From Thermoplasmatota archaeon (GTDB taxonomy: Archaea > Thermoplasmatota > Thermoplasmata > UBA10834): 64,000 nucleotides of DNA. Position 1 is the first letter of the stretch, and every line of letters begins with the position of its first letter. Of this stretch, positions 40,807 through 50,327 are shown in pieces. Both the position numbers and the translations under genes were made by a program. Where the stretch lies: positions 124,001-188,000 of the forward strand of contig JAHIRF010000009.1 of NCBI GenBank assembly GCA_018818785.1, read 5' to 3'. The notes beneath the pieces were generated by a model that was given only the letters and a program-made list of their open reading frames with translations, was not told where the DNA came from and did not search any database.

Positions 40807-40862
40807 GGATGGGAATATCCTTTCCCCGATTTTGCATGAAGGCTGACTTCATGGTAGCGGGT

Positions 40863-41267
40863 TCATGGATCGACAGTGTCTGGCTTCTCGGTTCGTATGT
40901 CATCCTTCTTCACTATTGAAATCACAATGAATGCAAGTGTCAGTATCATCAATACTCCAAACATGGCCACGAATGCCAACTCTCCCGACTCGGCATAATA
41001 TCCAGGGCTCACTATCACGGTATATGATAGCATCCCCAGCGCGACCATGTTGGCTTGGTATCCCCAATGTCTCCTCATGGTTATTGCCACTCCTCCAAGA
41101 AGCAGTGCGAAAGCAGTAGTTAACTCAGCTGCCAGATGGAACGAGATCTCGAGCGGACTGGATTCGAGTTCTGGTATCTGATCCGTCAGGGCGAACACGG
41201 ACCACATTGCTGCCATCATGATTCCAATTATGATCGAATAGGCGGCGACAGCGCTCCTGATATTCAT
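40863..41267 (-). CDS. Four-helix membrane protein, unknown
   Basis: A 134-residue protein with four hydrophobic segments at about 7-26, 42-60, 70-90 and 96-115, and a charged C-terminus (KKDDIRTEKPDTVDP) that should lie in the cytoplasm. No motif is recognised. It is the first of a row of small minus-strand membrane-protein genes. A and T content is higher than in the neighbouring housekeeping genes. Confidence 0.6.
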   Translation of the reverse strand: MNIRSAVAAYSIIIGIMMAAMWSVFALTDQIPELESSPLEISFHLAAELTTAFALLLGGVAITMRRHWGYQANMVALGMLSYTVIVSPGYYAESGELAFVAMFGVLMILTLAFIVISIVKKDDIRTEKPDTVDP

Positions 41268-41363
41268 CTTATCACATGCCGAATAATCTCATATTGTATG
41301 ATTCTTACTGACCTGATCGAAGAAGAACTGGTTCTGTGTGGTCTTCGGCAATCATCGGACGAG

Positions 41364-41525
41364 CTAGAGTAGCCAATCTATGGTCCAGTATAGAAGCGCC
41401 ATTAGAATGATGATTATCAGTAATGCTAGGGCGCCGCGTCCACTTAATTTGAACCGCCCTCCCTTCTCATACTCTAGTTCTGCCTTATCATCATGGGGGG
41501 GCTGGATGGTTATCTGCTGGGACAT
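41364..41525 (-). CDS. Single-helix small membrane protein
   Basis: A 53-residue ORF with a strong ribosome-binding site (GAGGAGG) 5 bases before its ATG. The N-terminal 28 residues are soluble (MSQQITIQPPHDDKAELEYE and basic residues). A single helix follows (GALALLIIIILMALLYW), ending WLL. The good ribosome-binding site and clean design argue that it is real. The function is unknown. A stem-loop and a TATA-overlapping dyad lie about 120-175 bases upstream. Confidence 0.6.
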   Translation of the reverse strand: MSQQITIQPPHDDKAELEYEKGGRFKLSGRGALALLIIIILMALLYWTIDWLL

Positions 41526-41647
41526 TTTTCCTCCTCATGATATTATTGACGCGGTAGTTCATCCATTTATTGCTCAAATTGTCGGTTGTCCGTGATTCCC
41601 AGAGAATGAGCCGCATCAGAATCGAGCTTGACTCATTTTGTACGATC

Positions 41648-41700
41648 GATTTCGCCCGTGCAAGGCAATTTGAACTGGCGAAATCACCTGTATAAACAGG
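41648..41700. promoter_or_regulatory. 9-bp stem-loop next to a dyad over a TATA box
   Basis: GATTTCGCC (41648-41656) and GGCGAAATC (41677-41685) are exact complements around 20 bases. Immediately after comes CCTGT-ATAA-ACAGG (41687-41700), a perfect dyad containing TATAAA/TTTATA. This fits a regulated promoter for the minus-strand gene at 41364-41525, or the end of 41742-42029. Confidence 0.4.
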
Positions 41701-41741
41701 AGATATCGAATCGCTCTGAGTCATCTACCCTGTCCGCCCCC

Positions 41742-42029
41742 TCAAACCTTTTGATTTCTTCCTATCCAGTGCATTGCCAGACACGAGATAGATGCCGAAA
41801 CAGCAATTGTGCCTATCACTGTCATTAGAATGCCCGCATTGACAACGGTCTTATCTGGAGTATTTAGGACGTAATGCCCATCCATGAAATACAATCCAAT
41901 ATGGGATCCATTATTAATGATTAGAATTCCCAAGGCAATCAATACAATTCCTATGAGTGCAATAGTCATCAGCAATGCCAATTTCCACCTCATCCGATCA
42001 CTGTGTTCATGATGGCATTTCACATTCAT
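41742..42029 (-). CDS. Two-helix membrane protein in the island
   Basis: A 95-residue protein with a short histidine/cysteine-containing N-terminus (MNVKCHHEHSDRMRWK) and helices at about 17-38 and 62-84. ATG 42029 is used. The longer frame to 42095 runs through repeat Y1 and is not credible. Only one Cys is present, so it is not a zinc ribbon. The function is unknown. Repeat Y1 lies directly upstream. Confidence 0.5.
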   Translation of the reverse strand: MNVKCHHEHSDRMRWKLALLMTIALIGIVLIALGILIINNGSHIGLYFMDGHYVLNTPDKTVVNAGILMTVIGTIAVSASISCLAMHWIGRNQKV

Positions 42030-42066
42030 AATTCTGGTCCAGAGCATGGACCCTGTGGGATTAGGA

Positions 42067-42153
42067 ACCACGAAACTGACTGGCTCACACCTCAAAATGC
42101 CTTTGTTAGGGCATCTTCGCCGAGGAGACGGATTGAGAGATAGGCTGAAACGC
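42067..42153 (+). repeat. Repeat Y1
   Basis: About 75 bases match Y2 at 48205-48285 with roughly 89% identity. It contains GACTGGCTC (42078-42086), a hairpin ATGCCT-TTGTTA-GGGCAT, and the conserved CTTCGCCGAGGAGAC, and it runs into a pyrimidine tract. It lies between two minus-strand one-gene units. Confidence 0.75.
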
Positions 42154-42170
42154 TTTCCTTTTTTCTGATT

Positions 42171-42677
42171 TCAATGAGGAAGAAGCCAACTATCGACCTC
42201 TTCATACCACTCTTCTGAGTCTAAATATCTGAAGGTTACCTTGAGTTGCACTTCATCCAGGTCCGCCTCCTGTTCATTGAATGTTGTTGGCAGGCGGAAC
42301 GAGTCATAGAAATCTGTGGAGCTACCCGCAGGCATCCATCTGAGAGTTTCAGTGATATTATAATTCCAGCCTCGGTCATCTGATAGACTGAGCGTGACTT
42401 GGGCGAAACAGCCTACAGAGCCGACATTGAAGATGTATCCCGAGCACAGCATATCATACCAACCGACACTTCCATCAGCGCCTCCGAAATTAACTTCGGT
42501 CTCAAGAACACCTACCAATTCAGGTCTTGGCTTGAGTGATCCAGCCACATAAATGGCTGCTCCGATTATCACAAGGACAATCACAACTGCAGCGGCAATC
42601 AATATCATTCTGTTGAGCTTCAATGCATCTCGCCATTCTGGATTGGGTAACGGTGTACCACACTTCGGACAATTCAG
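42171..42677 (-). CDS. Zinc-knuckle membrane-anchored protein, apparent CTG start
   Basis: The reading frame holds an N-terminal half zinc ribbon (LNCPKCGTPLP), a basic stretch, a helix (MILIAAAVVIVLVIIGAAI) and a 115-residue beta-rich outside domain with two Cys (YDMLCSGYIFN, SVGCFAQV). It aligns with sister genes that start with ATG inside the pattern GAGGGAATGGTATGAA. Here the ATG position reads CTG (GGAGGGAATAGACTGAAT). Either CTG is used, or the gene starts at the inner TTG 42623 or ATG 42608 without the zinc motif. It is 168 residues from CTG 42677. The function is unknown. Confidence 0.5.
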   Translation of the reverse strand: MNCPKCGTPLPNPEWRDALKLNRMILIAAAVVIVLVIIGAAIYVAGSLKPRPELVGVLETEVNFGGADGSVGWYDMLCSGYIFNVGSVGCFAQVTLSLSDDRGWNYNITETLRWMPAGSSTDFYDSFRLPTTFNEQEADLDEVQLKVTFRYLDSEEWYEEVDSWLLPH

Positions 42678-42731
42678 TCTATTCCCTCCAACCTTCTTCT
42701 GGATACCCGTTCGCCCATATGGCCTTTTCTC

Positions 42732-42822
42732 ATCGACCTATTGGGATTTGAACCCACCAAAATGACTGGCTCGACCGATTTAGGTACATGATACCCGTCT
42801 TATCGCATCTTTGGAAGGCACC
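42732..42822 (+). repeat. Repeat X1, tRNA T-arm-like core
   Basis: It matches X3 (44971-45061) at about 86 of 91 positions. It contains GGGATTTGAACCC, which reads GGGTTCAAATCCC on the minus strand like a tRNA T arm, then GACTGGCTC (42764-42772). A pyrimidine tract (CCCTTTCTCTTTCTCC) follows. No complete tRNA can be folded. Confidence 0.8.
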
Positions 42823-42871
42823 TCAAAATTGGACATAAACCCTTTCTCTTTCTCCATTTGAGGATGAATCT

Positions 42872-43027
42872 CTACCTGATGGTGGTAAACCATGCAAAGA
42901 GCCAAAACAGCCACGATATGAACCATAATATGCCCAAGGCAAGGAGCCAATTCAAGGTTCCTTCAATATTCTTCAATGAATTCGTCATCTCTGCTGACAG
43001 CTGTTGAATCGGCGAACCACTCACCAT
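42872..43027 (-). CDS. Small single-helix membrane protein
   Basis: A 51-residue ORF: a polar N-terminal 27 residues (MVSGSPIQQLSAEMTNSLKN) and a Trp/Phe-rich helix (LALGILWFISWLFWLFAWF). Its upstream region carries the shared island promoter/leader (43042-43073), including GAGGGAAT just before ATG, which strongly supports that it is expressed. I recognise no family. Confidence 0.6.
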   Translation of the reverse strand: MVSGSPIQQLSAEMTNSLKNIEGTLNWLLALGILWFISWLFWLFAWFTTIR

Positions 43028-43041
43028 AGAATTCCCTCGTT

Positions 43042-43073
43042 CCCGAATCGCCTTCGATGACTTAAGAGCTTCT
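43042..43073 (-). promoter_or_regulatory. Shared island promoter/leader, copy P1
   Basis: The minus strand reads AGAAGCTCTTAAGTCATCGA then AGGCGATTCGGG, with CTTAAG 34 bases before the start of 42872-43027. It is nearly identical to three other copies (P2-P4). Confidence 0.6.
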
Positions 43074-43123
43074 CCCCGTCCATATGGCCTTTGCGCGCTG
43101 AGAATTCCAGACCGCGGGATTAT

Positions 43124-43585
43124 CTAGCCGCCGTAACCTGCACGTTCCCTGCCGACCTTCCAGGCAAAATACAGGATTGCGAAGCCAAATAAGCACCATA
43201 TCAGGCCCCCCAACCACCCTGCATCAAGGAAGAAGAACAAGCCGAGCAGAATATAGATTGGGATTGAGATGATCAAACCTATGATGTATTGCCCCTTGGT
43301 GGAGTAGAGCCTTCCCGAATTGAGGGATGGAATACTGGCACCTGCCACATATGCATCCTCTGGCACGAGAGATGGGAGGAATTCCTTCGAGGAGATAGTC
43401 TTGGCATATCCACGATCCAGGTCCTCTCCGCACCGACCACAATACACAACGTGTGGTGGGTTCTCGTGCAGGCAAGCGGGGCAGGTTCTAGAACCCTCCG
43501 GCCGAGACTGCAGCTTCACGCCGCATTTGTTGCAGTATATCGATGCGTCTGGGTTCTCATGGCCGCAAGGACATCTCAGTGGCAT
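43124..43585 (-). CDS. Double zinc-ribbon membrane protein
   Basis: A 153-residue protein with two N-terminal zinc ribbons: CPCGHENPDASIYCNKCG (residues 5-22) and CPACLHENPPHVVYCGRCG (34-52). A linker follows, then two hydrophobic helices at about 99-120 and 122-142, and a basic end. Zinc ribbon plus helices is repeated in four other genes of this island with little similarity outside the ribbon. The ribbon should face the cytoplasm. The function is unknown. Confidence 0.65.
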   Translation of the reverse strand: MPLRCPCGHENPDASIYCNKCGVKLQSRPEGSRTCPACLHENPPHVVYCGRCGEDLDRGYAKTISSKEFLPSLVPEDAYVAGASIPSLNSGRLYSTKGQYIIGLIISIPIYILLGLFFFLDAGWLGGLIWCLFGFAILYFAWKVGRERAGYGG

Positions 43586-43635
43586 GTCGCACCTTCACCT
43601 GAGAGCCACAGAGGCGAACACAAAGATTATGCTGG

Positions 43636-43690
43636 AAACCCGTTATTCTTCTAGAGGGGTTCATCGCCCCTCACCAAATCTCTTTCGCTT
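43636..43690 (+). repeat. Repeat Z1
   Basis: AGGGGTTCATCGCCCCT hairpin followed by CACCAAATCTCTTTCGC. It resembles Z2 (45066-45107) and Z3 (48284-48344), including the preceding CCCGTTATTCTT. Confidence 0.6.
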
Positions 43691-43879
43691 TTCAATCCCT
43701 TGGCCCTTTCTTGGATCTGGAGAAGATCATGACGATGAACTCGATTTCAACCCCTAGTTATAGGAGCCGCGGAGTCAATGACTTCGAGATTGCTTCAAAA
43801 TATCCATTCCGCGACAACTATAATTGAACCTGTGCGCATCCGCCGTCGGTGGTACAGGGTGAGTTCGTTGGAAACCTCG

Positions 43880-44194
43880 ATGCATGTGACATTCGCTGTG
43901 GTGCCAATTCTGGCCATTGGAATTGTCTTGGGTATCGTGCTACTTGTGATCGGTTTGTCTAGGAGAAACAGCGCAATTATCGGATACGGGGAAACGCTCT
44001 TTGGACTGACCGTCTTCGCCTTTCCGATGGTGTTCTTCCTTGACAAGGTTTCAGATGACTGGGAGGCATTCGTGCCTTCGACTGGAGACATCGCATTACT
44101 TGGGATTCTGTCCTTCGTAGGAGGCATGAGCGTTGCACTCGGATTGAGGAACATCCTATCTAGGACGAGTGTGTCGAAGTTCTCTACATTATGA
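43880..44194 (+). CDS. Three-helix membrane protein
   Basis: A 104-residue plus-strand protein with helices at about 2-24, 37-52 and 67-86 and a basic C-terminus (RNILSRTSVSKFS). ATG 43880 is chosen because upstream residues are polar and arginine-rich and probably not coding. It is one of only four plus-strand genes in the island. The function is unknown. Confidence 0.5.
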   Translation: MHVTFAVVPILAIGIVLGIVLLVIGLSRRNSAIIGYGETLFGLTVFAFPMVFFLDKVSDDWEAFVPSTGDIALLGILSFVGGMSVALGLRNILSRTSVSKFSTL

Positions 44195-44260
44195 GGAATC
44201 CGAAGGTGTCCCATCAACCTTTGTCATTTCGTCCTCGAAATCCGTTTCCCGGGATTCAAA

Positions 44261-44345
44261 TCGAAGGGGATTTGAACCCCTGAGGAGCCAGTGTGTCAGG
44301 ATTCGGATTCAATCAACGGGGAATTGGCCGGAGCTAAACCTCTTT
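44261..44345 (+). repeat. Repeat X2, tRNA T-arm-like core
   Basis: It matches X4 (47609-47695) at roughly 80%. It opens CGAAGGGGATTTGAACCCC and runs through ATTCAATCAACGGGGAATTGG to CTAAACCTCTTTCCTC. On the minus strand AGGGG-TTCAAAT-CCCCT is a perfect T-arm. The rest does not fold as a tRNA. Confidence 0.75.
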
Positions 44346-44436
44346 CCTCATTTATTCTCCCTCAAGCAAGACAAAGATACAAGAGCAGATTGATGCATTC
44401 CGAACTCTAGAGGGTGGTAGCCTGCGTATCGGTCAT

Positions 44437-44928
44437 GTGGATGGGAAGAATAGGATTTACGATGAGCAGGGAAATCTACTTCTCCTTCCGAACGAGAATC
44501 TCTTGACCAAACACTATTTCGTGACCATGAATGTGACCGAGTCGTGGCGGAGTTTCTACATAGAATGCGTGATAGCGATGGAAGCTGGCCCCTTCAAGTG
44601 CTTCCTAACCAATCAACGAGTGGTCTTCACTCGACGGCCAAATCCTTACAAAGCTGGAGCTTACTTGATGACACCTCTCGGTGCTCCTGAAGGCATTGCT
44701 AAGGCGTACAAGGCGCGTATGATCTTACAGGCTGGGGGATTTGAGTACTACGAATTGTTCTTCAGGGACATCAGATTCTACAAAGTCTTCAAGAACTGTG
44801 TTGATTTGTTCATCATGGGCGATGAACGGCAGAAGAACAGGGCAACTATCTCGAATCATGGTGCGAAGCCTGCGTTGAGAGTTCCTCTTATCGATCTCTT
44901 AATCAACAAGGGCATTCAGTCTAAGTGA
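44437..44928 (+). CDS. PH/GRAM-like domain protein, possibly 5'-truncated
   Basis: A 163-residue soluble protein. KCFLTNQRVVFTRRP (residues 62-76) and LFFRDIRFYKVFKNCVDLF (107-125) match the beta-strand pattern of bacterial PH/GRAM-type domains that sit on membranes. The frame is open and protein-like upstream (KTKIQEQIDAFRTLEGGSLR), but there is no ATG, GTG or TTG before the region merges with repeat X2. So either GTG 44437 is the start or the original 5' end was lost by recombination at X2. There are no cysteine clusters. Confidence 0.55.
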   Translation: MDGKNRIYDEQGNLLLLPNENLLTKHYFVTMNVTESWRSFYIECVIAMEAGPFKCFLTNQRVVFTRRPNPYKAGAYLMTPLGAPEGIAKAYKARMILQAGGFEYYELFFRDIRFYKVFKNCVDLFIMGDERQKNRATISNHGAKPALRVPLIDLLINKGIQSK

Positions 44929-44970
44929 TGTCACTATTCAGCCTCCTTGATAGCATTTTCTCCCTCGATC

Positions 44971-45061
44971 ATCGACCCATTGGGATTTGAACCCACCAAA
45001 ATGACTGGCTCGACCGATTTAGGTACATGATAGCCGTTTTATAGCGTCTTTGGAAGGCACC
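44971..45061 (+). repeat. Repeat X3, tRNA T-arm-like core
   Basis: About 95% identical to X1 over 91 bases, in the same orientation 2.2 kb away. It is followed directly by Z2. GACTGGCTC is at 45003-45011. Confidence 0.8.
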
Positions 45062-45065
45062 CGAA

Positions 45066-45107
45066 ACGAGGGGTTAATTACCCCTCATTAAACCCCTTTC
45101 TTTCTCC
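45066..45107 (+). repeat. Repeat Z2
   Basis: GAGGGG-TTAATTA-CCCCTC hairpin, then ATTAAACCCCTTTCTTTCTC. It lies just beyond the 3' end of the minus-strand gene 45184-45552. Confidence 0.65.
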
Positions 45108-45183
45108 AATTGGAGTTTCTGAATTAGCAGGCTCAATACTCTTCTCCTTGTTGCTCCGACTTTATAGGTTTCTAGATTGACGA

Positions 45184-45552
45184 TCAATTTGGCTGTGTTA
45201 GACGCTTGTTGAAGATAATGGCAAACACACCAACTATTGTGATCAATACGGCGAAGCCTAGCCAAATTTTGAGGAGGGTAACGGCATCCGACCGGTCTGT
45301 CACAAAGACTGAGCTTATCAGGGTGACCAGGGTGGTACCAACAGTCACAATGACCGCAAGAATAGCAACTAAGGTCACCCTCCGAATGTTGATTGCATTA
45401 GACACTTGTGCGTCGAGTCGCGTTGTCTCACTTGTCATATTGAAATCTGCTCCATTCAAACCCCGACTCAGCGCCTTCTTGATGTGTTCCCTGCAATCAA
45501 CGCAATAGATTGCGCCCTCTGGATTCTGCTTCCCGCAATTTGGGCACTTCAT
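45184..45552 (-). CDS. Zinc-ribbon membrane protein
   Basis: A 122-residue protein with an N-terminal ribbon CPNCGKQNPEGAIYCVDC (residues 3-20), a polar linker to about 55, and helices at about 56-80 and 93-113. The start ATG 45552 follows GAGGGAAT and the shared promoter P2. The C-terminus (NKRLTQPN) is short and cytoplasmic. It is a paralogue in layout, not closely in sequence, of 43124, 45592 and 46182. Confidence 0.65.
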   Translation of the reverse strand: MKCPNCGKQNPEGAIYCVDCREHIKKALSRGLNGADFNMTSETTRLDAQVSNAINIRRVTLVAILAVIVTVGTTLVTLISSVFVTDRSDAVTLLKIWLGFAVLITIVGVFAIIFNKRLTQPN

Positions 45553-45571
45553 ACCATTCCCTCTACCGTGA

Positions 45572-45603
45572 CCCGAATCGCTCTCAATGGCTTAAGGGCT
45601 TCC
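45572..45603 (-). promoter_or_regulatory. Shared island promoter/leader, copy P2
   Basis: GAAGCCCTTAAGCCATTGAG then AGCGATTCGGG upstream of 45184-45552. CTTAAG is 39 bases before the ATG. The stop codon of the preceding gene (TAA) lies inside CTTAAG. Confidence 0.6.
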
Positions 45604-46008
45604 TTTTCGATGATTAGGATTGTATTCAATGCTGATTCCAGCAACTATGAATGCTAATAGAATGACACCGAATTCTAGCAGTCGAGTGGCAAATCTGATG
45701 CTCTCCCCCGCTTCCTGGATTTCGTCATAAGTAGTCGCATCCTTTTGTTGCGAGAAAGCCACCTCCATGAGAATGTATCCTCCAAGAATGAGAAGCAGCG
45801 CAACGATAGCCAGAGCAGGAATGAGCCGGGATCTCCAGTTGCTGCCTGAGCTGTATCTTGCTTGAGAGTTTGTGGTTCTAGAAACAAGAATCTCTTGAGA
45901 ATCATCTCCATACTCACTGGGCAATTTCGCCATATCCTTGCCACATTTTCGGCAGATAGTATTTCTCTGAAAAGAACTCCAGTGTCCACAATGCGGGCAT
46001 TCGATCAA
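45592..46008 (-). CDS. Zinc-ribbon membrane protein, TTG start
   Basis: A 138-residue protein with ribbon CPHCGHWSSFQRNTICRKCG (residues 4-23), a Ser/Arg-rich linker, and helices at about 63-85 and 107-127. The start is TTG 46008 after GGGGGAATGG and promoter P3. A mild A/T preference sets it apart from housekeeping genes. Its stop codon is part of the next gene's promoter, so the two genes are packed tightly but each has its own promoter. Confidence 0.62.
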   Translation of the reverse strand: MIECPHCGHWSSFQRNTICRKCGKDMAKLPSEYGDDSQEILVSRTTNSQARYSSGSNWRSRLIPALAIVALLLILGGYILMEVAFSQQKDATTYDEIQEAGESIRFATRLLEFGVILLAFIVAGISIEYNPNHRKGSP

Positions 46009-46026
46009 GAGACCATTCCCCCATTG

Positions 46027-46058
46027 CCCGAATCGCTCTCGATGGCTTAAGGGCTTCT
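46027..46058 (-). promoter_or_regulatory. Shared island promoter/leader, copy P3
   Basis: GAAGCCCTTAAGCCATCGAG then AGCGATTCGGGC upstream of 45592-46008. CTTAAG is 38 bases before the TTG. Confidence 0.6.
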
Positions 46059-46069
46059 CTCAGAAGAAT

Positions 46070-46150
46070 CGTGGTGCGGCCGCCGGGCCGCGCACCCTGC
46101 ATCAGCCAGCCATCATTTCTCTGATTTCAATTGACCCGCAATGACCTCTT
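46070..46150. repeat. GC-rich hairpin and Y1-tail-like sequence
   Basis: A strong hairpin, GCGGCC-GCCG-GGCCGC, followed by CTGATTTCAAT, which also occurs after Y1 (near 42160). It sits between two zinc-ribbon genes where a repeat would be expected and may be a decayed one. Confidence 0.35.
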
Positions 46151-46181
46151 CCGCCACATTGTCTTTTCCGATGCGAGGCGC

Positions 46182-46568
46182 TTATCTCCACGTCTGCTGA
46201 CTATAATGTGCAAGAAGGTAGACTGCGATGACCACTAGGATTGCGAACGCAACTAGGCCAGCTGCGCTCAGGTCCGATGCGGTTTTCAGGTCATGCGCAT
46301 AAGTATAGAGGTTCTGTGGATTCTCAGCGAGGGCTCGCATCCAAATCTGGCCGACCACAATCGCAAGAGCAGCTATCGTCAAAGCAGGACCAACGATCCA
46401 GGTCAAGATCAGCCCCTGGTCTTTGTATGATGGCTCAGGCACATACGTTTTGACACGTTCAATCTGGATTTTCAATGGCTTTTGTTCAGTTCCGCCGAAC
46501 GAGCATCCGCAGTTACCGCAGTAATCCATTCTAGAAGGATTCTCAAACCCGCATTTCGGACACTTCAT
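46182..46568 (-). CDS. Zinc-ribbon membrane protein
   Basis: A 128-residue protein: ribbon CPKCGFENPSRMDYCGNCG (residues 3-21), a basic linker, and helices at about 50-72 and 97-119. ATG 46568 with GAGGGAAT upstream and promoter P4; an in-frame ATG two codons earlier is possible. It is divergent from the integrase gene, and the two promoters are only about 40 bases apart. Confidence 0.65.
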   Translation of the reverse strand: MKCPKCGFENPSRMDYCGNCGCSFGGTEQKPLKIQIERVKTYVPEPSYKDQGLILTWIVGPALTIAALAIVVGQIWMRALAENPQNLYTYAHDLKTASDLSAAGLVAFAILVVIAVYLLAHYSQQTWR

Positions 46569-46582
46569 CGCCATTCCCTCGA

Positions 46583-46617
46583 TCGTAATCGCCTTCGATA
46601 GCTTAAGGACTTCTCTC
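46583..46617 (-). promoter_or_regulatory. Shared island promoter/leader, copy P4
   Basis: GAAGTCCTTAAGCTATCGAA then GGCGATTACGA upstream of 46182-46568. CTTAAG is 34 bases before the ATG. It is next to the divergent integrase promoter (CTATATGTAAG near 46640). Confidence 0.6.
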
Positions 46618-46679
46618 TGCGGTCCACAGTCATCCCCCTCTATATGTAAGGGCGGTGAGACTTGCGACTGGCTCTGCAC

Positions 46680-47600
46680 ATGCAAGTAATCATTGTCTTC
46701 GCTGCGGGATATGAAGCGATGTGCGTGCGCCAACCCAAATTGAGGAGAGACCCTCGGAAATGGACAGAGAATGAGATCAAGGCGATTCTCCAAGACCTGA
46801 AGGAAAAACAATTGAGTCTTGCGACTCAATGCAAGGAGCTGCAGCATATTGGCGTGGTATTGACCCATTGTGGAAATGGAATAATGAGGAAGATGCGGCT
46901 AGCGTCACCTCATGCATTCCCACACGAGGATCGAGTCAGGGGGCCCAGTCTCATGGAGAATGACCTTGACCGGATTCTGAGAGCGTGTGAAAGAATACCT
47001 GAATGGTGGGGCGAAGTGGCGAGATTCATCTTTGCCGCTTATGCCTACACAGGTCTCAGAATGTCTGAGCTCCGAAGGGCTGAATTCAGGGATGTCAATA
47101 CTAGGGAATGGCTATTCTTTGTAAGGCATCCCAAAGGTGAGAGCAGTTATGGACGACAGAGAACAATCCCCATACCCCCGCCCTTGAAACCCTATGTGCT
47201 GAGTTTCTTGCAGGAGCGAGCTAAGATGCTGGTGGAGCGAGGGCTAGTCGAAGCAAAATGCTTTGTCTGCAAGAAATCTGGAAACCCGAATGAACCGTAT
47301 TCGACGAACGGCTTCGAAACTCTGAAATTGCGAGTAGAGAAGGAATCCGGAATCACTTTCCAGATTCGGACACTGAGACGCACATATGGTCAAGTGCTCT
47401 TGAACAGAGAAGTGCCTCTAGATTCAGTCTCATTGACTATGGGACATAGATACACAAGCACCACCGAGAAGTACTATTGCAGAAAAGACGACGGCATGGC
47501 GAGACTCGAGGTCCTTCGAGGCTTCGAAATGCCGTCACCGGCTCCGAGTTTTAATACCCCCCAGATTGAAAAAGAAAATGATTATACTGGCTATGCGTAG
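46680..47600 (+). CDS. Tyrosine recombinase/integrase
   Basis: A 306-residue site-specific recombinase. The N-terminal 100 residues are a poorly conserved core-binding domain. The catalytic domain has TGLRMSELR (Arg 127) and HPKGES (lysine region), then RTLRRTYGQ where HxxR is expected (Arg 230 in the His position, Arg 233 conserved). TMGHRYTSTTEKYY gives His 256 and the nucleophile at Tyr 265/266. A Pro/Asn-rich tail follows. ATG 46680 is taken; ATG 46722 is possible. It is flanked immediately downstream by repeat X4, as integrases often are by their attachment site. Confidence 0.85.
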   Translation: MQVIIVFAAGYEAMCVRQPKLRRDPRKWTENEIKAILQDLKEKQLSLATQCKELQHIGVVLTHCGNGIMRKMRLASPHAFPHEDRVRGPSLMENDLDRILRACERIPEWWGEVARFIFAAYAYTGLRMSELRRAEFRDVNTREWLFFVRHPKGESSYGRQRTIPIPPPLKPYVLSFLQERAKMLVERGLVEAKCFVCKKSGNPNEPYSTNGFETLKLRVEKESGITFQIRTLRRTYGQVLLNREVPLDSVSLTMGHRYTSTTEKYYCRKDDGMARLEVLRGFEMPSPAPSFNTPQIEKENDYTGYA

Positions 47601-47608
47601 GGATGGAC

Positions 47609-47695
47609 CGAAGGGGATTTGAATCCCTGAAGAGCGAGCATGTCACGACTCAAATTCAATCAGCGGGAAATTGGGTTCGGATCTAAACCTTTTTC
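47609..47695 (+). repeat. Repeat X4, tRNA T-arm-like core next to the integrase
   Basis: Direct repeat of X2, beginning 8 bases after the integrase stop: CGAAGGGGATTTGAATCCCT through AAACCTTTTTCTC. The pyrimidine tract encodes the C-terminus of the convergent gene 47683-48129. Confidence 0.75.
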
Positions 47696-48129
47696 TCTTT
47701 TCCCAAATCTTGCTTGAAGCCTCTCCGATAGAGAAGCAAAGAGTCGGAAACGAGCAATAACCCAAACATGGCAATTGCCACAAGACTCGAATCAAAAACT
47801 TCGGAATCGAAAACAATATTGCTAAATCCCACGAATACCAGGGCTGCGCCTGCCAAGAACTCTACTGCAACATACAACGCCATCACTGTCGATTCCCCAG
47901 GCAGATACAAGAAGGCGCTCAATTGCCGACTGGCTGCAAATGACACAACTAGGAATACCACTCCAAGAGCAAAGAAGATCAGCCCGAGGTCGGAAATCAT
48001 CAGAGAAATCCCTGCTGCAGTCATCATGATTCCCAGAATGAGTGGGACAAGAATAACAGATGAAGCATACGAATTGGTGATCCTTGGCTTTGAGGATTGT
48101 TGAGGTCTGGTCAAATCGGTCTCAAGCAT
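47683..48129 (-). CDS. Four-helix membrane protein
   Basis: A 148-residue protein with a polar N-terminus (MLETDLTRPQQSSKPRIT) and four helices at about 24-42, 47-63, 78-98 and 112-130. The C-terminal KQDLGKEKKV is encoded by the purine side of repeat X4. ATG 48129 suits a TATA-like GTTATATATG near 48174; an ATG at 48174 would lie on that box. The function is unknown. Confidence 0.55.
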   Translation of the reverse strand: MLETDLTRPQQSSKPRITNSYASSVILVPLILGIMMTAAGISLMISDLGLIFFALGVVFLVVSFAASRQLSAFLYLPGESTVMALYVAVEFLAGAALVFVGFSNIVFDSEVFDSSLVAIAMFGLLLVSDSLLLYRRGFKQDLGKEKKV

Positions 48130-48204
48130 AGCCGATAGGCACTGATGTTTCCTGGCATAAATCCTTCCGCACATATAACGATCCTTATCGACTCATTGGA
48201 ATGA

Positions 48205-48285
48205 GAAGCCATGAAACCGACTGGCTCACACCCCAAAATGCCCCTGTTAGGGCATCTTCGCCGAGGAGACAGATTGAGCGGTAGC
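48205..48285 (+). repeat. Repeat Y2
   Basis: Direct repeat of Y1, 6.1 kb away. It has GACTGGCTC (48219-48227), a perfect hairpin ATGCCC-CTGTTA-GGGCAT and CTTCGCCGAGGAGAC, and is followed by Z3. Confidence 0.75.
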
Positions 48286-48344
48286 AAACCTGTTATTCTT
48301 TTTGAGGGGTTAATTGCCCCTCATCAAACCCTCTTTCCTTTCTC
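48284..48344 (+). repeat. Repeat Z3
   Basis: CCTGTTATTCTTTTTGAGGG, hairpin GAGGGG-TTAATTG-CCCCTC, then ATCAAACCCTCTTTCC. It lies just past the stop of the minus-strand gene 48368-48580. Confidence 0.65.
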
Positions 48345-48367
48345 AGTTCACTCTGAGGCTATTGGAT

Positions 48368-48580
48368 TTAGTCATCGTGATGCTCCACCTTGATGGTCAC
48401 GTTTGGTTTGATGCCGGCTAGTGCTGGTAGCATGTGATTGAGGACTTGCTCTGCGGTCGCGCGGAACTCTCGGCCACGTGCGCTCACCTTCACCCAGCTA
48501 GTTCCGTCGCGGTAATAGCGCTCAGTGAAGTTCTTGGTGCCAATCAATATGACATAACTCTCATTGGTCAGGTTCATCAA
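48368..48580 (-). CDS. Small soluble protein, unknown
   Basis: A 70-residue protein with alternating beta-like segments (YVILIGTKNFTERYYR, TSWVKVSARGREFR) and a helix (EQVLNHMLPALAG), ending NVTIKVEHHDD. It has no zinc motif or membrane segment. It is the outermost minus-strand unit of the island. Annotation rests on ORF length and context only. Confidence 0.45.
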   Translation of the reverse strand: MMNLTNESYVILIGTKNFTERYYRDGTSWVKVSARGREFRATAEQVLNHMLPALAGIKPNVTIKVEHHDD

Positions 48581-48639
48581 TCATTCTTCCATCCTGTCAT
48601 CGCAATGCCTCCCCTTGGCCTTTTCTGAGAGGAAAGCAA

Positions 48640-48645
48640 TTTATA
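48640..48645 (+). promoter_or_regulatory. TATA box of the leaderless gene at 48666
   Basis: TTTATA centred 23 bases upstream of ATG 48666 would start transcription almost on the start codon. Confidence 0.45.
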
Positions 48646-48665
48646 CGGCCAATTCATTGGGCGCG

Positions 48666-48896
48666 ATGATGGTCGAGACTGAAGGTGCAGAATTCCAGAG
48701 AAAGGCGACATTCTCATTCTATGCGCTGCTCCTGGTCGCAGGAATCTCTCTCTATTGGATATGGGGCATGATGTACGACACATGGTACCCGTTCGATAAG
48801 GGGAACATCGGCATCTATGTGATATACGCCCCGCTCATGCTGTTCGGAATCGTAGGACTCCTGCTCTACAGGAAGAAGAAGCATCTGCCCCAGTGA
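48666..48896 (+). CDS. Two-helix membrane protein
   Basis: A 76-residue protein with a polar N-terminus (MMVETEGAEFQRK), helices at about 15-33 and 48-68, and a basic end (YRKKKHLPQ). A TATA box predicts a leaderless mRNA from ATG 48666 (or 48669). It lies at the right border of the island, convergent with proS. The function is unknown. Confidence 0.6.
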   Translation: MMVETEGAEFQRKATFSFYALLLVAGISLYWIWGMMYDTWYPFDKGNIGIYVIYAPLMLFGIVGLLLYRKKKHLPQ

Positions 48897-48929
48897 CCTG
48901 GATGCCTTTCTGAGACGCACGGATCTTTC

Positions 48930-50327
48930 TCACATTGCATTTGCGAGATAGACAGGGGTCTTCGTTGGCTTGCCGCAGATGACGCACTTGCCATCGTACT
49001 TCTCATCGATTATAGGCATGCCCAGGATGTTCTTGTCAGCCCTCGTCTCGATCTCGTGGCCGCACTCCTCGCTCCCGCACCATGCCGTGCGGATCATCTT
49101 GCTGGGGAGGTTATCCAAGGAATCTACGGTGACCACGTTCTCGTCCATCTCTTTCTGAGCTCTTGCGAGCATCTCCCTGGCTATGGTCAAGAGCATGTCC
49201 TTGACTTCATCGACTGCTCTGGACCTGTCATTCAAGGACTTCGCCCCGATGTCCCTGCGGACGAGGGTAATCTTGCCGCTCTCGATGTCCCTCATGCCCA
49301 GCTCCAATCTGAGAGGGACGCCTTTGAGTTCCCAATCATAATACTTGACACCTGGTCTGACATCCCTCTCGTCGATGTGGACCCTAAGGCCGGCTTCCTT
49401 CAGTTCTTTATGCAACTGCCGAGCCGCTTCGGTGACCTTGTCGATGGCCCCTTTTGCGAGTACTGGGACGATCACGACCTGTATAGATGCCACCTCCGGA
49501 GGCAGCACCAACCCCTTGTCATCCCCGTGGATCGCGACTATGGAACCGACCAACCTCTCGCTCATGCCATAGGTCGTCTGGTGGACGTACTTGTGCTGGC
49601 CCTGATCGTCCTCGTACTTGATGTCATATGGTCGGGAGAAATTCTCATTGTATTGGTGTATGGAACCCAGCTGCAAGCTCCTGCCATCGGGTAGGAGCGT
49701 GTCGATTCCGACCGTGTAGAATGCGCCCGGGAACTTGTCCCAATCAGTGCGCTTGAGCAATCTGTATGGTATGCACCACTTCTCGGCGAGCTTCTCCAGG
49801 ATATCAAAGTCCTCCTGAACCTGCCGCTCCGCATCCTGGAAATCCGCATGGCATGTGTGCGATTCGAAGAAGTGAATCTCCCTGACCCTGATGAATGCAC
49901 GGGTCTGCTTGGTCTCATATCTGAAAGTGTTGACGATCTGATAAGTCTTGAGCGGAAGGTCCGCATGGGATCTGACCCAGAGCGAGAACATCGGATACAT
50001 CGCCGTCTCGCTGGTTGGTCTGAGCAATAGCCTGACATCGAGTGGGTTCAACCCCGCATGTGTGACCCAGAACACCTCGGCATCGAATCCCTTGATGTGT
50101 TCCTTCTCCTTGGCGAACTGGTCCTCCGGCACGAGCAGAGGGAAGCATACTTCCTGATGGTCAGTGCCATCAAAACCTTCCCTGATGTGCCGGTCTATGG
50201 CCTGCATTATCTTCCAGCCATAGGGCGTCCAGACGTTCATCCCTTTGATGGGATATCGCTTATCGGTGAGGCTCGCCTTTTCGACGATCTCGTTGTACCA
50301 TTCGCTGAAATCCTCTGCTTTCTTCAT
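48930..50327 (-). CDS. proS: Prolyl-tRNA synthetase (archaeal/eukaryotic type)
   Basis: A class II synthetase of 465 residues that charges tRNA-Pro. It has motif 1 near GWKIMQAIDRHIREGF, motif 2 RYETKQTRAFIRVREIHFFE with the TxE loop region, then SHTCHADFQDAERQ. The anticodon-binding and C-terminal zinc-like domains end with CGSEECGHEIETRAD and CVICGKPTKTPVYLANAM. It is the right-hand neighbour of the accessory island. Confidence 0.95.
   Translation of the reverse strand: MKKAEDFSEWYNEIVEKASLTDKRYPIKGMNVWTPYGWKIMQAIDRHIREGFDGTDHQEVCFPLLVPEDQFAKEKEHIKGFDAEVFWVTHAGLNPLDVRLLLRPTSETAMYPMFSLWVRSHADLPLKTYQIVNTFRYETKQTRAFIRVREIHFFESHTCHADFQDAERQVQEDFDILEKLAEKWCIPYRLLKRTDWDKFPGAFYTVGIDTLLPDGRSLQLGSIHQYNENFSRPYDIKYEDDQGQHKYVHQTTYGMSERLVGSIVAIHGDDKGLVLPPEVASIQVVIVPVLAKGAIDKVTEAARQLHKELKEAGLRVHIDERDVRPGVKYYDWELKGVPLRLELGMRDIESGKITLVRRDIGAKSLNDRSRAVDEVKDMLLTIAREMLARAQKEMDENVVTVDSLDNLPSKMIRTAWCGSEECGHEIETRADKNILGMPIIDEKYDGKCVICGKPTKTPVYLANAM

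Follow-up and report, generated by a model that had tools for sequence, protein, structure and literature searches.

Does an integrase gene beside an attachment (att)-like site, with a matching site some 3.4 kb away, delimit a single integrated element, or is it part of something larger? The question is raised by a 64-kb stretch of contig JAHIRF010000009.1 (the window) of a Thermoplasmatota archaeon, whose genome (G000) is a 1.97-Mb draft in 12 contigs. A sequence-only reading of the window had taken the direct repeats X2 and X4 as att-like sites bracketing a single integrated element. The comparisons reported here indicate that the region is probably a degenerating array of small gene cassettes in tandem, integron-like and built on att sites derived from transfer RNA (tRNA) ends (Table 1). 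Features seen directly in the sequences carry this reading: the tRNA identity of the site cores, an integrase gene tail placed at tRNA genes, the uniform orientation of the sites, relatives without the array, single cassettes recurring at other loci elsewhere, and homology edges at a 23-bp motif, LE2.

X2 (44262-44346) and X4 (47609-47695) are 81.6% identical over 87 bp in parallel orientation. Their local alignment score of 95 lies far beyond that of random window pairs (up to 2000; mean 14.7, standard deviation 2.4, maximum 35), in agreement with the earlier estimate of about 80% identity in the same orientation. Five full copies of the X repeat are present in the genome, so X2 and X4 are members of a larger set. 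On the minus strand, an X copy consists of an arm, about 60 nt long, and then the tRNA-Ala(TGC) 3' end. Among eight tRNAs of the same genome, tRNA-Ala(TGC) was the best match for both X2 and X4 (scores 44 and 49; runners-up 26 and 21). A run of 22 nt in X2 equals the tRNA-Ala(TGC) gene at G000:C8:28045-28066, within a tRNA called by ARAGORN, and X4 is 96% identical to the 3' end of this tRNA over 27 nt. The T-arm-like core previously noticed in both repeats is thereby matched to a tRNA gene of the organism itself. X2 and X4 are predicted att-type sites derived from the 3' end of a tRNA gene.

The tRNA-like part of X4 begins at about 47604, right behind the integrase stop codon (47598-47600); the sequence-only reading had put the start of X4 8 bases behind that stop. 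The last codons of the recombinase gene and the DNA directly behind them are conserved among relatives. In 12 of 54 integrase matches, representing 10 distinct loci, the match ends 4-7 bp from a tRNA 3' end (Ala-GGC, Arg-CCT, Arg-TCG, Gly-CCC, Gly-GCC or Leu-GAG), and a further nine have a tRNA at no more than 400 bp. The same integrase tail lies behind the tRNA-Ala(TGC) gene of G008, behind X4, and behind a site of another family, D, in contig C4. Because the tail directly follows true tRNA genes in relatives and X4 here, X4 is evidently a recombined tRNA end, with the arm of another unit in place of the tRNA 5' half. By these placements the window recombinase belongs to a tRNA-targeting tyrosine recombinase family, which bears out part of the claim of an integrase beside an att-like site. 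The gene itself is not intact: compared with its four closest full-length relatives (376-467 aa), the 312-aa protein is short of about 65-76 N-terminal residues. This copy is probably no longer self-moving because it is truncated. A search for viral relatives of the integrase in IMG/VR gave 28 pattern matches, none of which was confirmed.

X2 and X4 are only two of the sites in the window array. Sites of the D family have an arm distinct from that of X, and their preserved cores are close to tRNA-Ala(CGC). Four such sites are present in the window (D3a, D2a, D2b and D3b), in addition to the arm-only remnant D5a. The G site resembles two other sequences, L040 14411-14488 (82%, 78 bp) and L034 16801-16904 (83%, 104 bp). 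All X, D and G sites of the array point in one orientation, and most site-to-site intervals hold one small gene. Between X4 and D2b lie the integrase gene, three zinc-ribbon genes and, among these, the G site. The cargo had been described as a PH-like gene and three zinc-ribbon genes; the latter match Pfam only under the cut-offs, and the PH-like gene gave no match in Pfam or PHROGs searches.

Relatives indicate where the array begins. In G001 and G002, which belong to the same genus, about 90-120 bp lie between msrB and the small gene next to proS, and no array is present. Flank homology with eight relatives stops at 48627-48634, which is the start of an LE2 copy (48628) and lies about 0.93 kb past X4; for this right end, the earlier expectation that empty-site boundaries would coincide with X2 and X4 did not hold. 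Cassettes of this part of the array recur elsewhere. The homologue of the gene at 48368 stands in G008 behind tRNA-Ala(TGC) and an integrase-tail remnant. That of the gene at 47683 stands in G010 behind tRNA-Arg(TCG), with 82% DNA identity over 401 bp into the X arm, which then gives way to LE2. The orthologous gabT-proS gap of other relatives contains a zinc-ribbon gene in G003, a recombinase and D sites in G009, and a short X-arm-like remnant in G011. In G006 and G008, by a reading of the translations, it holds an unrelated insert, a transporter-like operon, so variability is a general property of this gap.

Sequence models of X and D, run on 22 genomes at E 0.1 or better, matched in 17 and 12 genomes, respectively, the X counts including tRNA genes. 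Among 100 kept sites, neighbouring X/D pairs within 4 kb were co-oriented in 27 of 27 cases (22 of 22 outside the window array). Arrays were found behind tRNA-Ala(CGC) in contig C9 of G000 and in G010, behind tRNA-Ala(TGC) in G001, G006, G008 and G010, and behind tRNA-Arg(TCG) in G010. In locus L040 of G000, the tRNA-Gly(GCC) gene is followed by copies of LE2 and by pieces of X and G. X arms in G010:C32 end in another tRNA-like 3' end, the same as at the head of that array, which ARAGORN did not call. Since these arms bear the tRNA-like end of their own array's head, the core appears to follow the target and the arm to stay constant. In the C9 array, a PF23343 replication protein gene and an integrase gene lie between tRNA-Ala(CGC) and the array. 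The replication-initiator gene (L032 2412-3569; PF23343 above cut-off) directly follows the tRNA and heads a plasmid-like element with integrase and X/D sites.

LE2 was first seen behind D cores and behind tRNA-Ala(CGC) of G010. In 842 kb of loci, 69 copies were found with up to 6 mismatches, against 0-6 in ten shuffles; 15 of the 69 follow a tRNA or site core by no more than 40 nt, a density biased by the loci having been picked for sites. Across whole genomes, with up to 3 mismatches, 262 copies were found in 12 of 60 genomes, against one for the reversed control. The copies are spread over G007 (59), G010 (54), G016 (40), G009 (36), G005 (24), G014 (23), G000 (12), G001 (5), G012 (4), G018 (3), G003 (1) and G015 (1), all from one family. 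In the single-contig genomes G005, G007 and G016, LE2 neighbours within 2.5 kb are co-oriented in 78 of 79 cases, with a median spacing of 556-599 bp. Two 19-kb stretches of sister genomes hold 17 and 18 copies, and no tRNA was detected there. Hardly any conservation extends outside the 23 bp across 111 copies. When both strands of the window were scanned with a position weight matrix (PWM), the three best matches (42732, 43097 and 48628) all fell in the array on the minus strand, with scores of 32.5, 12.5 and 8.7 against a maximum of 6.6 in the reversed window. An archaeal RNase P RNA gene (L155 16929-17244) lies near a long LE2 array of G007.

Breakpoints between genomes were compared in 17 array stretches of five genomes, which gave 39 shared between-genome segments. 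Seven of the 39 start within 6 bp of LE2 in both genomes (0.22 expected for one side; at most 3 in 2000 shifts), and 13 of the 39 end within 10 bp of the LE2 end in both genomes (0.38 expected for one side; at most 5 in 2000). The test is somewhat biased to LE2, because an alignment can be carried on to the end of a conserved motif. Single units of one array of G016 (L156) are common to three arrays of G007 (L155, L157 and L158). As to the integrase, LE2 lies within 4 kb behind it in 10 of 33 cases (L124 repeats L150, and the window is counted), mostly truncated copies. Loci L145, L147, L148 and L138 hold C-terminal integrase remnants whose homology ends 7-73 bp ahead of an LE2; these look as though LE2 units took over the rest of the integrase gene.

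In the mechanism proposed for the array, a cassette would consist of about one gene and then, in the tRNA sense, a conserved arm and a copy of a tRNA 3' end (Ala-UGC, Ala-CGC or Gly). The tyrosine recombinase family of these Thermoplasmata would join its own 3'-flanking attP to tRNA 3' ends, and later units would insert either at the tRNA itself or where the preceding unit ends. Such serial insertion would pile up arm and tRNA-end sites in a single orientation. The recombinase presumably acts on the X, D and G sites, the small units may be mobilized either in trans or as a tandem, and LE2 could be a crossover or arm-binding site.

The single element proposed at the outset draws support from its matching sites, from the integrase gene next to one of these and from cores of the same tRNA isoacceptor. 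Integration of an element at a tRNA gene would account for repeats that match a tRNA 3' end (for X2, the T-arm part only) and for the adjacent tyrosine integrase, though the latter is truncated. An intact tRNA at one end is absent from the window and present for other arrays, and no empty site with ends at X2 and X4 was found: the boundary of absence is 48628 rather than X4. Because D2b and the G site fall inside the block (D3a, D2a, D5a and D3b lie outside), the stretch from X2 to X4 is several units rather than one, unless a nested history is assumed in which the X4-X2 element came first and the D2b and G units inserted afterwards. The attL and attR of one recent integration are expected to share a short identical core and to differ in their arms. 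Here the similarity runs along the entire arm and the mismatches fall within the core, which disfavors a single X2-X4 integration, and this explanation is unlikely. A much stronger contender, falling only somewhat short of an even chance, is tandem accretion of ordinary tRNA-targeted islands, with LE2 only an arm-binding site or leader and no shuffling of cassettes. The cores and arms of the window array are compatible with it, and the available text on Dehalococcoides describes tandem islands bearing 3'-end repeats, many of them devoid of integration genes (PMC3146451). Units of about 0.3-1 kb with about one gene each, the 17- and 18-copy LE2 arrays without a detected tRNA, and the units of one array common to three arrays of another genome are harder to explain by accretion.

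Two further explanations concern the repeats rather than the element. LE2 and the D1 repeats could serve a duplicated gene family as promoter or leader elements and have spread through gene duplication; LE2 often stands 30-75 bp ahead of an open reading frame (ORF), and D1 immediately ahead of zinc-ribbon genes. The orientation of LE2 is uniform, yet by a hand count with longest-ORF calling only 43 of 73 ORFs are on its strand and 30 of 73 on the opposite one. The ORFs behind LE2 also appear unrelated, LE2 adjoins tRNA 3' ends, and the X and D cores are tRNA ends, which together make a promoter family improbable. It is more improbable still that the sites represent structured RNAs or interspersed repeats of tRNA origin. 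The T-arm and the hairpins of D sites would suit such an origin, but the consensus fold is weak, with 0-3 compensatory pairs, and the sites are tied to the integrase tail and to tRNA genes. An Rfam search of 41500-49000 at up to E 1 gave no match, and with the weak folds this led to structured RNA being set aside.

The cassette-array reading, which is preferred over these, also has evidence to answer. X2 keeps only the T-arm part of tRNA-Ala(TGC), and D3b lacks a recognizable tRNA core. One weak X match, in G010:C24, is on the opposite strand. No tRNA gene was found in the 64-kb window, so the arrival of the array in the msrB-proS gap is not explained by a tRNA gene there, and a homology edge on the left (msrB) side was looked for in relatives and none was found. 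A good LE2 stands directly behind a window site only at D2a, the other two being divergent. Most shared segments have their edges elsewhere than at LE2 (32 of 39 starts and 26 of 39 ends). Integrase relatives are also present outside the LE2-bearing family, and full-length integrases are mostly without a nearby LE2; for these reasons LE2 and this recombinase may not work as a pair.

Targeting of tRNA genes and gene remnants are familiar features of archaeal tyrosine integrases. In contrast to other tRNA-targeting archaeal integrases, the gene here is unsplit and the tRNA-like core starts right behind its stop codon; unlike gene capture at archaeal tRNA genes, the units hold one gene and form long arrays. 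According to a review, in the part available, archaeal elements integrate several in tandem at one locus (PMC8371274). In the available text of PMC3146451, the Dehalococcoides ssrA islands lie in tandem behind an RNA gene, with direct repeats of its 3' end and a conserved adjacent motif, and many units lack integration genes, all as in the present arrays. As described there, those islands are multi-gene and use a serine recombinase and a transfer-messenger RNA (tmRNA) target; the present arrays instead involve a tyrosine recombinase and several tRNAs, and their units hold mostly one gene and come with the 23-bp LE2. The att-bearing units without a recombinase also resemble cis-mobilizable elements, a term used in the same text, but are much smaller, more numerous and only putatively mobile. 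Integrons have been reported in Archaea, in an article whose main text, as available, contains neither the term Thermoplasm nor tRNA (PMC9668308). Like integrons, the arrays have co-oriented sites between small genes, about one gene each, single units common to genomes at different places, and an integrase remnant heading some arrays; that the sites are of the recombination type is judged from their sequence. They differ in having a tRNA 3' end where integrons have attI; the integrase families searched were those of Pfam and PHROGs. Among known systems, the X and D sites appear nearest to tandem RNA-gene islands and the LE2 arrays nearest to integrons. It is proposed tentatively, with somewhat less than even confidence, that the arrays form a capture platform unrelated to integrons, in which tRNA ends receive units, the recombinase loads and moves one-gene units, and LE2 is the exchange point for shuffling between long arrays. 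In the literature searched, titles and the beginnings of abstracts contained no description of tRNA-end cassette arrays in Thermoplasmata. If units are exchanged at these sites, one archaeal family collects and reorders small genes in integron fashion with tRNA genes as docking points, and ordinary integrases that target tRNA genes can give rise to cassette arrays. The X, D, G and LE2 sequences provide concrete, testable boundaries in chromosomes assembled as one contig, among them G005, G007 and G016.

Table 1. Features of the array, in window positions from the proS side to the msrB side
Feature	Position	Strand	Basis
Whole array, about 7.8 kb, tRNA sense on minus	40810..48628	-	Right edge exact, left (msrB side) approximate
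LE2 motif at array head, divergent, 6 mismatches, beside promoter region of small gene next to proS	48606..48628	-	PWM 8.7, third best; homology edge
70-aa cassette gene	48368..48580	-	86% aa homologue in G008
D3b site, D family, decayed core without clear tRNA match	48186..48342	-	nhmmer E 6.8e-30; best core score 13
163-aa cassette gene	47683..48174	-	69% aa homologue in G010
X4, X-family arm and tRNA-Ala(TGC) 3' end, adjoining integrase tail	47604..47696	-	Alignment, tRNA comparison
Tyrosine recombinase, 5'-truncated, 312-aa ORF	46662..47600	+	PF00589 61.6 bits; homology from about residue 17-30
Zinc-ribbon membrane-type gene; D1 repeat 46583-46613 upstream	46182..46571	-	Sub-cut-off Pfam
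G site, arm and decayed tRNA-Gly 3' end	46054..46131	-	tRNA-Gly(GCC) best core match, score 28
Zinc-ribbon gene; D1 repeat 46027-46057 upstream	45592..46008	-	Sub-cut-off Pfam
Zinc-ribbon gene; D1 repeat 45572-45602 upstream	45184..45552	-	Sub-cut-off Pfam
D2b site, core nearest tRNA-Ala(CGC)	44970..45106	-	nhmmer E 3e-38; core score 36
163-aa ORF, PH-like gene of the sequence-only reading	44437..44928	+	Without family match
X2, X-family arm and tRNA-Ala(TGC) T-arm core, acceptor end missing	44258..44348	-	Alignment, nhmmer, tRNA comparison
138-aa cassette ORF	43778..44194	+	ORF list
D5a, D-family arm alone, core unmatched	43589..43692	-	Sequence comparison
Double zinc-ribbon gene (DZR)	43124..43585	-	Pfam above cut-off
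LE2 motif, 6 mismatches, then D1 repeat 43042-43072	43075..43097	-	PWM 12.5, second best in window
D2a site	42731..42852	-	nhmmer E 7.6e-29
LE2 motif, 2 mismatches, directly behind D2a core	42710..42732	-	PWM 32.5, best in window
150-aa cassette ORF	42171..42623	-	ORF list
D3a site, core nearest tRNA-Ala(CGC)	42045..42150	-	nhmmer E 1.9e-21; core score 39

Two further features of the repeats were also observed. Three of the four D1 repeats in the window stand upstream of zinc-ribbon genes; D1 also occurs behind LE2 in other genomes and is promoter-like or leader-like. Sites of the D3 type, such as that at 48186-48342, have an arm with two short hairpins, GAGGGG...CCCCTC and TGCCC...GGGCA.

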